From: an uncultured Lachnospiraceae bacterium
Lineage (GTDB): Bacteria; Bacillota; Clostridia; Lachnospirales; Lachnospiraceae
Assembly: GCA_945919075.1 (NCBI GenBank)
Contig: CAMEIX010000010.1
Location: 1-64,000 of the forward strand
Length of the DNA: 64,000 nucleotides
Direction: 5' to 3'
The position numbers and the translations under genes are program-made. This document shows, piece after piece, positions 48,142 to 51,379 of this stretch (position 1 is the first letter of the stretch; each line of letters opens with the position of its first letter). The notes under the pieces are model-generated. The model searched no databases. It worked only from the letters and a program-made list of their open reading frames with translations, and was not told the DNA's origin.

Positions 48142-48987
48142 CTATTTTACAATTCCGCCTTCCACTACTAAGCTTTCTTCATAATCCAGACCATAGGTGT
48201 CCACTAACGTAGCTTCATAATCCTTGTGGAAAAAGTTTTCCTTGCCCAATTCTACAATTTCATCGTTTAACCATTTTAATAAGGTTTCATTGCCCTTTGT
48301 GACAGCAGGGGCGATAGTATCCTGACTTCCCAAGGAAGGAATACCTACGGTGTAACCGGGATTCTGCAGGGCAAAAGCAATGACTTCGGTATTATCGTTT
48401 GCCCAGGCTGCCGCATTACCGTTTTCCAGAGCATTCTTTGCGTTGGCATAGGAATCATATTTCTGTAATTTAATATCCGGATAGTTTTCAATTAAGTAGG
48501 TTTCTGCGGTGGTACCGGAGATGACAATGATTTCATCGTTTGCATCCCAGTTATCCAAAGAGGTAATGATCTTACTGTCCGGGGAAACAACTCCCAAAGC
48601 CACATTCATGTAAGGACTTGCAAAATCCACTTCCTCCGCTCTCTCCTTGGTTACGGTGAAGTTTGCCAGAATGATATCCACCTTACCGGTCTGCAGATAT
48701 TCGATTCGGTTTGCTGCTTCGGTGGATACGAAATTGACATCCACGCCTAAATCCTCCCCGATCCGGTTCGCGAAGTATACATCATATCCCTGGTATTCTC
48801 CATTTTCATCCACGTAACCAAAGGGATTTTTGTCGGAAAATACTCCAATGTTGATGGTTCCGCTCTTCTTGATTTCGTCCACGGTACGATAGCCTTTATT
48901 ACTATCGTTTCCTGCTTTACCGCAAGCTGTAAGGGACAGGGTAAGTGCCAAGGTTAATACAGTTCCTAATACTTTTCTGATTTTCAT
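48142..48987 (-). CDS. Amino acid ABC transporter binding lipoprotein, cyst(e)ine-type
   Basis: A 281-residue family 3 solute-binding lipoprotein (lipobox LTAC). GTINIGVFSDKNPFGYVDENG, the DLGVDVNFV... EYLQTGKVDIILANFTVT and EEVDFASPY segments are typical of polar amino acid binding proteins; the overall look is close to cysteine/cystine-binding members such as CjaA. Context (cysteine-rich leader, Rrf2-type operator, met genes) supports a sulfur amino acid. Confidence 0.88.
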   Translation of the reverse strand: MKIRKVLGTVLTLALTLSLTACGKAGNDSNKGYRTVDEIKKSGTINIGVFSDKNPFGYVDENGEYQGYDVYFANRIGEDLGVDVNFVSTEAANRIEYLQTGKVDIILANFTVTKERAEEVDFASPYMNVALGVVSPDSKIITSLDNWDANDEIIVISGTTAETYLIENYPDIKLQKYDSYANAKNALENGNAAAWANDNTEVIAFALQNPGYTVGIPSLGSQDTIAPAVTKGNETLLKWLNDEIVELGKENFFHKDYEATLVDTYGLDYEESLVVEGGIVK

Positions 48988-49007: not shown

Positions 49008-49769
49008 TTAAGTCGTTACCAAACTTTTTCTTTTTTCATATTGAAATTTTTGTAAAAACTGCTTTGCTCTTTCCGTTTTCGGATGCTCAAAGAATTCCTC
49101 GGGGGATCCCTCTTCCAAAATCCTTCCGTCCTCCAAAAACAGAATTCTGTCCGCAACCGCTCTTGCGAACTGCATTTCATGGGTGACAATCAACATCGTG
49201 CGCCCCTGATTTGCAAGATTCAATATAACTTCCAGTACTTCATGAACCATCTCCGGGTCCAGAGCTGCCGTTACTTCATCAAACAACAGTACATCGGGGT
49301 GCATACAGAGTGCTCTGGCAATGGCTGCCCTCTGCTTCTGTCCTCCGGACAACTCTCTCGGGTAACTGTCCGCCTTCTGCTCCAGTCCCATTTTTTTCAG
49401 AAGTTCCTTCGCTTCCCTAACCACCTCTTTTTTGTCTCTTTTCTGTACAACGAGGGGGGCCAGAGTGATGTTTTCCAGAACGGTTTTATGAGGAAATAAT
49501 TCATAACTCTGAAAAACCATTCCTATTTTCTGTCTTAACCTGCTTAAATTCTTATCATAATCAATATTCTCTCCTTCAAAGATAATCCTTCCGGCCTGCA
49601 GCTTCTCTAACCCATTGATACAACGGAGCAATGTGCTTTTTCCACAGCCGCTGGTACCGACAACCACAATGACCTCGCCCCTTTTCACAGATAAGTTCAA
49701 ATCCTCAAGGACTGTCAGATCATGAAATTTTTTGGAAACGTGTTCCAGTTTTAGAATTTCCTCTGTCAT
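49008..49769 (-). CDS. Amino acid ABC transporter ATP-binding protein
   Basis: A 253-residue ATPase of the polar amino acid class: Walker [10 protein letters not shown], signature [15 protein letters not shown], Walker [13 protein letters not shown] and switch His in IVTHEMQF. It starts 4 bp after the second permease. Partner of the binding protein and the two permeases just upstream in the operon. Confidence 0.93.
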
Positions 49770-49773
49770 GGGT

Positions 49774-50445
49774 TTACCTCCATTTCTTTTCCAGATATCC
49801 GGCTAACCGACTGATAGGAAAGCAAGCGGCAAAATACATAAGCAGCACAAAGAGGTATACCCCGAAGGCTGCGTTCGGGCTGGCTGTCCGATTGGCTTCA
49901 ATAATCTGCTGTGCCACTTTTAACACTTCCACAACACCAATCATAACAATTAGGCTTGTTGTCTTAATCATTCGTGTAATCAGATTAATGGATAACGGAA
50001 TCAGCCTCCGTACCGTCTGTGGAAAAACAATGTAAAAATAAGTTTGTGCCTTGGTCATTCCAAGTGCATAAGCGCTTTCATACTGGTGTGCGGCAATGCC
50101 CTGTAGCGCCCCTCTTACCAGATCGCCCATCTCTGCCGTGCCCCACAGAGCAAATACAAAGATGGATGCCGCTTCTCCCGAAACATTTAATCCGAAGGCT
50201 CTGGTAGTTCCAAAGAATACCAGGAACAACAGGACTAACTGGGGCATGATGCGGATAAATTCCAAATAGAAACGAAGTATTAATGTAACCACCCTGTTCT
50301 TCACTGTCATGAAACTTCCCATCAGGATACCAAGCGGTATACTGATTAAAACTGCAATCAGGCTGATTTTCAGGGCCATCCCCAGTCCGCCAAGCAGTCT
50401 AATAAGATTTCTTCCCTTAAAAAGTACCTCAAGACCCAAATCCAT
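49774..50445 (-). CDS. Amino acid ABC transporter permease (second)
   Basis: A 223-residue permease of the HisM/GlnP class, about five membrane spans; EAA motif in [22 protein letters not shown]. Its start (ATG 50445, with AAAGGAGG upstream) is within the end of the first permease gene; an in-frame ATG at 50469 lacks a good ribosome site. Confidence 0.9.
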
Positions 50446-51088
50446 GACGTCCAAGCCTCCTTTCCACATAACTTCCCAAAAGAGAAACCGGAAGGAGTAT
50501 GATCAGGTAGAACACCACTAACAGAAATAAACTCTCTGCGGTTTTGGAATAAATCCCGATTAAATCCTTTGCCGTAAACATCAGATCCATCAAACTGATT
50601 GCACTGAATACGCTGGTCTCCTTTAACAGGAAGATGACGTTTGCCATAAATGCCGGAAAACTGAGTGCAAAAGCCTGTGGAAAAATGATGTATCGCATGG
50701 TCTGCAAACCGGAAAGCCCCAGGCTGCAGGCACTTTCAATCTGTACCTTTGCAATGGCTTCGAGTCCGCTTCGAAAGGCTTCTGCCATATAACTTCCTCC
50801 CAAAAATCCAAGTCCCACAGCTCCGCAGACAAAAGCATTCATCTTAAAGCCAATCTTCGGTAATCCGTAGTAGAAGAAAAATAACTGAATAATCAGGGGT
50901 GTGTTTCTGCTGATTTCTATGTACACGGCAACCGCTCCGGTTAAAAAAGGAACTTTGTAATACCTAATCAGCGAACATACAAGACCAATCAACACGGAAA
51001 GGAATATTCCGATGAATCCTACCTGCAGGGTTAATACCGCTGCATCCTTATAAAGTGGTAAAACTTTGTAGATAAAATCCGGATTCAT
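50429..51088 (-). CDS. Amino acid ABC transporter permease (first)
   Basis: A 219-residue permease of the same class with EAA motif ACSLGLSGLQTMRYIIFPQA. The frame is open back into the leader region, but the ATG at 51088 has AGGAGG at 7 nt and follows the attenuator terminator by 34 bp. It is the first structural gene after the leader peptide. Confidence 0.92.
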   Translation of the reverse strand: MNPDFIYKVLPLYKDAAVLTLQVGFIGIFLSVLIGLVCSLIRYYKVPFLTGAVAVYIEISRNTPLIIQLFFFYYGLPKIGFKMNAFVCGAVGLGFLGGSYMAEAFRSGLEAIAKVQIESACSLGLSGLQTMRYIIFPQAFALSFPAFMANVIFLLKETSVFSAISLMDLMFTAKDLIGIYSKTAESLFLLVVFYLIILLPVSLLGSYVERRLGRHGFGS

Positions 51089-51122
51089 CCTGTTTCCTCC
51101 TTTCCTTCCATTCATTTGGGGC

Positions 51123-51148
51123 AAAAAAATGCCCGGGAGTCCCGGGCA
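51123..51148 (-). terminator. Intrinsic terminator in the transporter leader (attenuator)
   Basis: On the minus strand TGCCCGGG-ACT-CCCGGGCA is a perfect 8-bp stem followed by seven T. It lies after the leader ORF and before the first permease of the same transcript. CGTCACTTGC (complement of 51146-51155) overlaps its base and can pair instead with GCAGGTGACG inside the leader ORF (complement of 51203-51212), 10 pairs with one G-U. Confidence 0.9.
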
Positions 51149-51182
51149 AGTGACGTTCTCTATCAATCAAAACGGTAAAGAA

Positions 51183-51278
51183 TTAAGCACAACAAAGTAT
51201 GCCGTCACCTGCACAGGACTTAAGCATTCGACAGCAACACATCATGGTATTTAACTCACTTACATGATTTCTTTTCAT
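51183..51278 (-). CDS. Cysteine-rich leader peptide (31 residues)
   Basis: A 31-codon ORF with AAAGGAG 8 nt before its ATG. After MKRNHVSELNTMM it has Cys14, Cys15 and Cys16 in a row, then Cys22, Cys29 and Cys30, six Cys codons in all. It is placed between a promoter at 51347-51375 and a strong terminator, upstream of a sulfur amino acid transporter operon. This is the arrangement of a leader peptide that senses Cys-tRNA by ribosome stalling. A small Cys-rich functional peptide is an alternative, but no modification gene is near. Confidence 0.75.
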   Translation of the reverse strand: MKRNHVSELNTMMCCCRMLKSCAGDGILCCA

Positions 51279-51346
51279 TGTACTTTCTCCTTTCTTCTTT
51301 CGCACATCATTTGCTACTTTGTGATGTGCTTCCTTTCGTTGTGGTT

Positions 51347-51379
51347 ATATTATACCTATTTACCTACTATGTCAATAGG
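51347..51379 (-). promoter_or_regulatory. Transporter operon promoter with Rrf2-type operator
   Basis: TTGACA on the minus strand (complement of 51370-51375) is inside the palindrome CCTACTATGTCAATAGG (51363-51379). A -10 is TAATAT at 17 bp spacing or TATAAT at 15 bp. It starts 16 bp after the iscU stop and there is no terminator between, so readthrough from iscS-iscU is also possible. Confidence 0.8.

Follow-up and report, generated by a model that had tools for sequence, protein, structure and literature searches.

The leader and the genes that follow it

The sequence analysed here, hereafter the window, is a 64,000-nucleotide (64 kb) stretch whose minus strand encodes an ABC importer of the polar amino acid class. 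Its genes are as follows.

50429 to 51088, minus strand: first permease gene, starting with the ATG at 51088; the HEQRo_perm_3TM domain scores above its cut-off, and the cystine permease model PRK15100 ranks third, below cut-off
49774 to 50469, minus strand: second permease gene; the top NCBIfam model is the cystine permease PRK15100, below its cut-off
49008 to 49769, minus strand: ATPase gene; the top NCBIfam model is the L-cystine ATPase TcyN, below its cut-off
48142 to 48987, minus strand: substrate-binding protein gene; a lysine/arginine/ornithine-binding model comes first and a cystine-binding model second, both below cut-off

We infer that cystine is the substrate of this importer. Upstream of the leader locus lie nifU- and nifS-type genes and downstream of the importer a MetQ/MetN-like pair, so that the setting is one of sulfur metabolism. 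Between a promoter-like sequence and the first permease gene lie the following features, given with the evidence for each.

51347 to 51378, minus strand: predicted promoter, TTGACA (51375-51370), 17 nt and TAATAT (51352-51347), overlapping the operator-like sequence CTATTGACATAGTAGG at 51378-51363 (sequence and matching sites)
51287 to 51293, minus strand: leader ribosome-binding site AAAGGAG, 8 nt 5' of the ATG (sequence)
51183 to 51278, minus strand: predicted leader ORF of 31 codons, MKRNHVSELNTMMCCCRMLKSCAGDGILCCA, with its ATG at 51278-51276 and stop codon at 51185-51183 (sequence and family members)
51231 to 51239, minus strand: putative regulatory Cys codons 14-16, TGT TGC TGT (sequence and Cys positions in relatives)
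51197 to 51240, minus strand: predicted protector ('1:2') helix, here helix R, pairing 51240-51229 with 51207-51197 (predicted folds; the corresponding helix coevolves in relatives)
51203 to 51219, minus strand: predicted antiterminator 5' strand GTCCTGTGCAGGTGACG, inside the ORF (helix search, fold and covariation in relatives)
51187 to 51202, minus strand: hairpin C, inside the antiterminator (predicted fold)
51156 to 51182, minus strand: hairpin D, inside the antiterminator (predicted fold)
51139 to 51155, minus strand: predicted antiterminator 3' strand CGTCACTTGCCCGGGAC, which includes the terminator 5' arm (helix search and predicted fold)
51123 to 51148, minus strand: intrinsic terminator TGCCCGGG-ACT-CCCGGGCA-T7 (sequence; terminator-like hairpins in relatives)

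An earlier note on this DNA had described a 31-codon ORF with a good ribosome site and six Cys codons, three of them consecutive at positions 14-16, and the sequence bears this out, the Cys codons being 14, 15, 16, 22, 29 and 30. Among frames of 15-60 amino acids on both strands of the window, this ORF is, alternative starts aside, the only one with a CCC run. The last regulatory Cys codon is separated by 12 nt from the UCC of the antiterminator segment.

The terminator had been described as a perfect 8-bp G/C stem followed by T7; the eight pairs and the T7 stand, with the correction that seven pairs are G-C and one is U-A. A competing helix of 10 bp (51203-51212 with 51146-51155) likewise exists but is longer than stated, since 51219-51203, which a search returned as the terminator arm's best partner, pairs with 51155-51139 at 16 of 17 positions. 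When stalled and initiating ribosomes are masked, 17 of 18 positions are paired in the predicted fold. The antiterminator thus consumes the entire 5' arm of the terminator, and the weakness conceded earlier, that the competing helix takes only three of the eight terminator pairs, falls away. The score of the long helix was reached by none of 3000 dinucleotide shuffles of the segment, and by one of 426 minus-strand segments sampled, which had the identical score and which we take to be this very locus. Compared with shuffles, the fold of the 220-nt leader is better by 4.6 SD. In the fold predicted without a ribosome, helix R sequesters the Cys codons together with the 3' end of the antiterminator segment.

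Distribution of related leaders

Searched as plain DNA, the window leader matched in one of 101 genus genomes, the window's own. The family was uncovered by way of permease loci, then a degenerate pattern and then a covariance model. The permease loci numbered 96, made up of 80 from named genomes plus those of a genus set (16 of 138 genomes, the window's own included), and in a minority of them a terminator and a recurring Cys leader, MCC(C)RML.SRA..MAG, were seen. The degenerate pattern matched in 17 of 397 family genomes, its reverse in 0 of 397. Such a leader is encoded at 15 of the 17 matches; the other two (L103 and L105) encode none, were judged to be chance hits and were dropped before modelling.

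The covariance model was built from 27 relatives (alignment A2), with the window excluded. L066, aligned at first, was omitted from A2 and later failed the E<=0.01 threshold; hairpin C of the relatives could not be placed in register in A2 and was omitted from the model. The model recovers the window as a weak match (33.7 bits; E=2.7e-5 in the window, E=0.0013 genome-wide). At E<=0.01, matches occur in 47 of 397 family, 27 of 138 genus, 26 of 392 order and 5 of 398 phylum genomes, counts that each include the window's own genome, come from overlapping sets and, the filters being strict, lose weak matches. Some genomes have two to four copies. The 130 matches parsed for the analyses below comprise two batches of 91 and 36 plus three from one genome (G762), and some leaders are present more than once (L006/L176, L058/L221 and L166/L167).

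At the more permissive E<=0.05, 25 of the 96 permease loci have a match, a figure that counts the window and a truncated match (L071); in several of the 25 the element precedes another gene of the locus. The other 71, some of which are short, have none at this threshold. Named carriers are Hungatella hathewayi DSM 13479, [Clostridium] citroniae WAL-17108 and Hominifimenecus microfluidus CLA-AA-H215, and in the first two species the element stands before metY-like genes. We use the label 'Lachnospiraceae-type' because one genus genome (G005) matches Lachnospiraceae bacterium GAM79 and because of the named hits among the permease loci.

Two further permease homologues, one in Ruminococcus sp. 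FMBCY1 (L046, MTKLVSYVKSSMCCCCMCTMCMC...) and one in another genome (L050, MTMKNVCCMLKKKN...), are preceded by Cys-rich leaders of different sequence. Neither leader matches the covariance model at E<=0.05, and they are perhaps independent Cys attenuators.

Conservation of the reading frame

Each of the 130 matches contains a candidate ORF of 20-49 residues, which starts with ATG in 128 of them and is preceded by a ribosome site of at least 4 bases in 117. At least two Cys residues are encoded in 128 of the 130, and CC or CxC in 113. Overall, 11.8% of the residues that follow the start in the 130 parsed leaders are Cys, with Cys most frequent at codons 14 and 15 (128 leaders). The gap between the last Cys codon and the UCC in the antiterminator segment was measured in 107 members and is 12 nt in 66. 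A terminator-like hairpin follows in 118 of 130 members, compared with 9 of 130 mononucleotide-shuffled regions. In 92 of the 130 leaders there is also a Cys among the final eight residues (codons 29-30 in the window), a possible second stall site close to the stop codon.

That a structured leader folds so much better than shuffles would suit a riboswitch or a protein-binding switch through which the frame merely happens to run. The regularity with which ATG, ribosome site and paired Cys codons recur argues against the ORF being incidental, as does the mostly fixed spacing from Cys codons to segment. Nor did the window leader or seven relatives match any Rfam 15 family at gathering scores, and we consider a switch of this sort highly improbable. 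An Rfam search of L118 gave no match up to E=1. The sRNA near-matches on the window leader (MicX, MicC and AgvB) lay far below their gathering scores and were dismissed.

Residues other than Cys recur as well, the motif RM..[ST]R being present in 86 of 128 leaders. TnaC senses tryptophan as a nascent arrest peptide, and this recurrence might indicate that the leader peptide, C-C-R-M-L-x-S-R-A, is similarly an arrest peptide, sensing a sulfur metabolite in the ribosome tunnel, with the Cys mattering only as residues. However, synonymous positions are fixed too in these 86 leaders: besides CGA in 84, the paired codons are CGG in 82 and TCC in 79, in a sample gathered, it should be said, by a model that rewards these letters. 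Furthermore, the segment sits in a covarying helix, and the window has KSCAG in place of SRA with the pairing kept. An arrest peptide is, in our view, very unlikely.

The CGA is the Arg codon that follows the Cys run (84 of 86 motif leaders), while other leader Arg codons vary; a slow CGA codon at this point may matter beyond pairing.

Covariation of the competing helices

The MAFFT alignment of the 27 relatives, made from sequence only, contains the antiterminator as two helices totalling 15 pairs, with 90.8% of cells paired. Its covariation score was reached by none of 500 shuffles, and the number of pairs changed on both sides by 14 of 500. In 89 distinct model-aligned rows, 77 cells were changed on both sides compared with 17.6 in shuffles, a figure reached by none of 500, in an alignment that, being fitted by the model, leans towards the structure.

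An alignment-free assessment was made by swapping partners between members. Five of the 130 were skipped and the remaining 125 collapsed to 121 distinct members; the first-pass ORF parse was used, which misreads a few of them (e.g. L026, L122 and L215). The antiterminator gave z=6.7 and helix R z=5.0, control pairings giving 0.8 and -0.2. A local protector hairpin between the antiterminator segment and the region following it (hairpin P), plausible by eye, yielded z=-1.3 and was rejected. In the window itself the antiterminator scored 39, the swapped median being 18. For helix R the corresponding figures were 11 and 15 with the slices as used, its own value being low because its partner falls partly outside the slice.

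The earlier note had proposed aligning related leaders as a check, and the outcome is favourable to it: Cys codons, spacing and terminator are kept and the competing helix shows compensatory changes.

Genes downstream in relatives

First downstream genes were picked by a simple ORF rule, which called a gene in 128 cases, and clusters were named from one or two representatives each, the permeases from the window's own. On this basis 106 of the 128 belong to a sulfur or amino-acid-uptake cluster. Cys/Met PLP enzymes of MetY and MetB/MetC type account for 57, binding proteins for 20 and permeases for 19; smaller clusters comprise 10 peptidase T-like, 7 MetN-like, 4 GST-C-like and 3 CysK genes, with 8 single others.

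Among the genes preceded by the element are also one for a glycyl radical enzyme close to sulfopropanediol dehydratase, one for a putative cyclase, one for a LysR regulator and the ten of the peptidase T-like cluster (loci L144, L171, L180, L196, L198-L205 and L210). The genes in these contexts are candidates for undescribed roles in sulfur supply.

The shared operator-like sequence

The window's own genome has four zero-mismatch sites for the operator-like sequence CTATTGACANNGTAGG: at the leader (window 51363-51378), before the nifS-type gene (53110-53095), before a cysK-like gene (12466-12451) and before metY (L252; G000:C12:21476-21491). We used only these four because at up to two mismatches the pattern shows no enrichment in the own genome (14 matches versus 31 for the reversed pattern). 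Across the family, the sequence occurs at up to one mismatch upstream of 98 of 130 members, compared with 0 of 130 mononucleotide-shuffled upstream regions. This shared promoter element likely marks a sulfur or Fe-S regulon under one regulator, which we guess to be of Rrf2 type, CymR/IscR-like.

Behind the same operator, before metY, lies a second, shorter Cys-containing leader, MLHIFEKLVRNNYRFGRMCCPHC. Its hairpin, ACCGGTAAAATCCGG, has no U run and so offers no clear terminator; this leader is possibly a decayed or translational version of the attenuator.

An operator-like site over the promoter could suffice for cysteine control, the operator alone regulating and the terminator, constitutive, simply setting expression or closing an upstream nifS-nifU transcript. 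The terminator, however, lies 3' of the leader's own promoter, and in relatives it sits within a competing-helix architecture with a covarying antiterminator. We give this reading scarcely any credence.

Proposed mechanism

The leader combines a predicted short ORF bearing a run of codons for the regulated amino acid (six Cys in 31 codons, with a ribosome-binding site), an intrinsic terminator before the first structural gene, a mutually exclusive antiterminator with covariation, and a protector helix involving the regulatory codons, seen in the predicted folds of the window and in the coevolution of its counterpart in relatives. It is very probably a ribosome-mediated transcription attenuator that reads the level of charged tRNA-Cys. 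The earlier note read the locus as an operon for sulfur amino acid transport attenuated by Cys-tRNA supply, and the comparative sequence evidence supports this. What we infer is that the leader is translated, that ribosomes stall in it, which way the response runs and how the OFF state is reached.

In the proposed sequence of events, transcription would start at the promoter overlapping the shared sulfur-gene operator and a ribosome would translate the leader. With ample Cys-tRNA the ribosome would pass codons 14-16; behind it the Cys codons would re-pair with the end of the antiterminator segment as helix R, the terminator would fold, and transcription would stop before the importer genes. 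With Cys-tRNA scarce, the ribosome would stall on codons 14-16 and prevent helix R from forming, leaving the segment, 12 nt downstream, free to pair with the 5' arm of the terminator. With that arm taken, RNA polymerase would read into the cystine-type ABC importer.

Folding with ribosomes masked

The switch was modelled by equilibrium folding with ViennaRNA of the window transcript from 51340, each ribosome being represented by a 29-nt mask with an assumed footprint reaching 17 nt to the 5' side and 11 nt to the 3' side of the A site. Without a ribosome the terminator has a probability of 0.96; with a stall at codon 14 the antiterminator reaches 0.67. Adding another ribosome, placed on the start codon, raises the latter to 0.87 for a stall at codon 14 and gives 0.76 for one at codon 16. 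If the ribosome at codon 16 is the only one, the terminator persists (antiterminator about 0.01-0.04) and the ribosome-binding site is paired with the hairpin region. A ribosome two or four codons before the stop gives the terminator, but one exactly at the stop codon gives the antiterminator (0.87).

The earlier note had suggested folding both states and had supposed that the antiterminator segment would be covered once a ribosome stood at the stop codon. The terminator without a ribosome and the antiterminator at a codon-14 stall agree with its model; the supposition about the stop codon fails, since the modelled footprint ends at 51202, adjoining the segment at 51203-51219, and the fold then predicted is antitermination. 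Such a result runs counter to the model, unless the ribosome is released fast or is a steric obstacle to the helix. Helix R (51240-51229 with 51207-51197) is the likelier OFF element, rather than cover by a ribosome at the stop codon.

The relatives were treated in the same way, leaving out L036 (misparsed), L211 (no convincing leader) and members with no recognisable terminator arm or helix. In 123 of them folded without a ribosome the antiterminator is already ahead (mean 0.52, against 0.36 for the terminator). It rises to 0.65 with an initiating ribosome alone and to 0.69 with a second ribosome stalled at the last Cys codon (25 up, 13 down), and is 0.68 when the stall is placed six codons earlier; with a ribosome at the stop codon it is 0.47 (stalled versus stop, 49 up and 11 down). 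Passing the Cys codons therefore lowers antitermination in these calculations, and masking the Cys codons adds little at equilibrium. With a single ribosome, at the last Cys codon versus the stop codon, 42 of 124 members go up and 21 down.

Accessibility of the segment in truncated transcripts of 121 members shifts modestly in the expected direction, from 0.36 without a ribosome to 0.41 when stalled (44 up, 13 down) and 0.52 when stalled with an initiating ribosome (82 up, 8 down). For the window, the two stalled calculations point in opposite directions (0.61 and 0.32, relative to 0.53). The direction of folding fits induction on cysteine shortage, although energetics alone are no proof, and across relatives these switch calculations support the attenuation model only moderately.

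At the last Cys codon of the window, the predicted flip to antitermination occurs only when an initiating ribosome is also present. The first Cys codon in the family is most often codon 14, about 13 codons past the start, which leaves just enough space for a second ribosome at the start codon. A bolder proposal, which we put forward as speculative and rather doubtful, is that the family is a regulon-wide Cys attenuator of Lachnospiraceae-type Clostridia doing the work of Cys T-boxes in other clostridia, and that it operates as a ribosome-queue switch. If the queue reading were true, the leader would sense cysteine shortage and initiation capacity jointly.

Relation to known systems

In the trp, his and leu attenuators of enterobacteria, regulatory codons are coupled to a logic of 1:2, 2:3 and 3:4 helices. 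The window leader shares both elements and differs in having Cys codons and in placing segment 2 inside the ORF, with the stop codon downstream of it. T-boxes act through direct tRNA binding; no covariance match to the T-box, which we take to be RF00230, was found on the window leader.

The nearest precedent found is the uORFC-8-2 motif of Rhodobacterales, which lies upstream of cysS and has tandem Cys codons, usually as codons 14 and 15, and a U run consistent with an intrinsic terminator; attenuation by charged tRNA-Cys has been proposed for it (PMC8632094). The uORF, its Cys codons 14-15 and the proposed tRNA-Cys attenuation are thus common to both. As described there, uORFC-8-2 is confined to cysS in Rhodobacterales and has two prominent stems, whereas the window family is found in Bacillota before several kinds of sulfur gene and has an antiterminator in which a segment of the ORF pairs with the terminator 5' arm (PMC8632094). 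In place of cysS in Rhodobacterales, the genes following the window family are transporter, metY-type, cysK and others in Bacillota; no cysS occurs among the named representatives of the downstream clusters.

Actinobacterial Cys leader peptides are short ORFs with Cys runs before cys operons; they differ from the window family in lacking a conserved terminator hairpin and in having the Cys runs near the stop codon (PMC1262725). Mycobacterial polycysteine ORFs (Canestrari 2020, as cited in PMC13236596) share the Cys runs before cys operons, but that source calls the M. smegmatis case translation attenuation. In Clostridium perfringens, a clostridial relative, a Cys-specific T-box lets cysteine availability control premature termination before cysteine genes (PMC2940859), as we propose here, though with no leader peptide. 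Histidine leader peptides before hisS and hisZ in bacilli likewise represent leader-peptide attenuation in Firmicutes where others use T-boxes; they concern histidine, bacilli and a different gene family (PMC2965389).

A description of this Cys leader family was not found in the literature searched, the scope of which excluded most subscription journals. We read the leader as belonging to a new family within a known type of control, ribosome-mediated attenuation by Cys supply, here apparently serving a whole sulfur regulon of Lachnospiraceae-type Clostridia. It adds a cysteine attenuator family with support from sequence, structure and covariation, and would allow a set of 20-49 amino-acid ORFs in these genomes to be named. 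Leader-peptide attenuation would here serve a regulon for which Clostridium perfringens uses Cys T-boxes, and in gut-type Clostridia the family would place amino acid or cystine-type uptake, methionine-cysteine interconversion by MetY- and MetB/MetC-type enzymes, CysK and uptake of the methionine type under a single signal.
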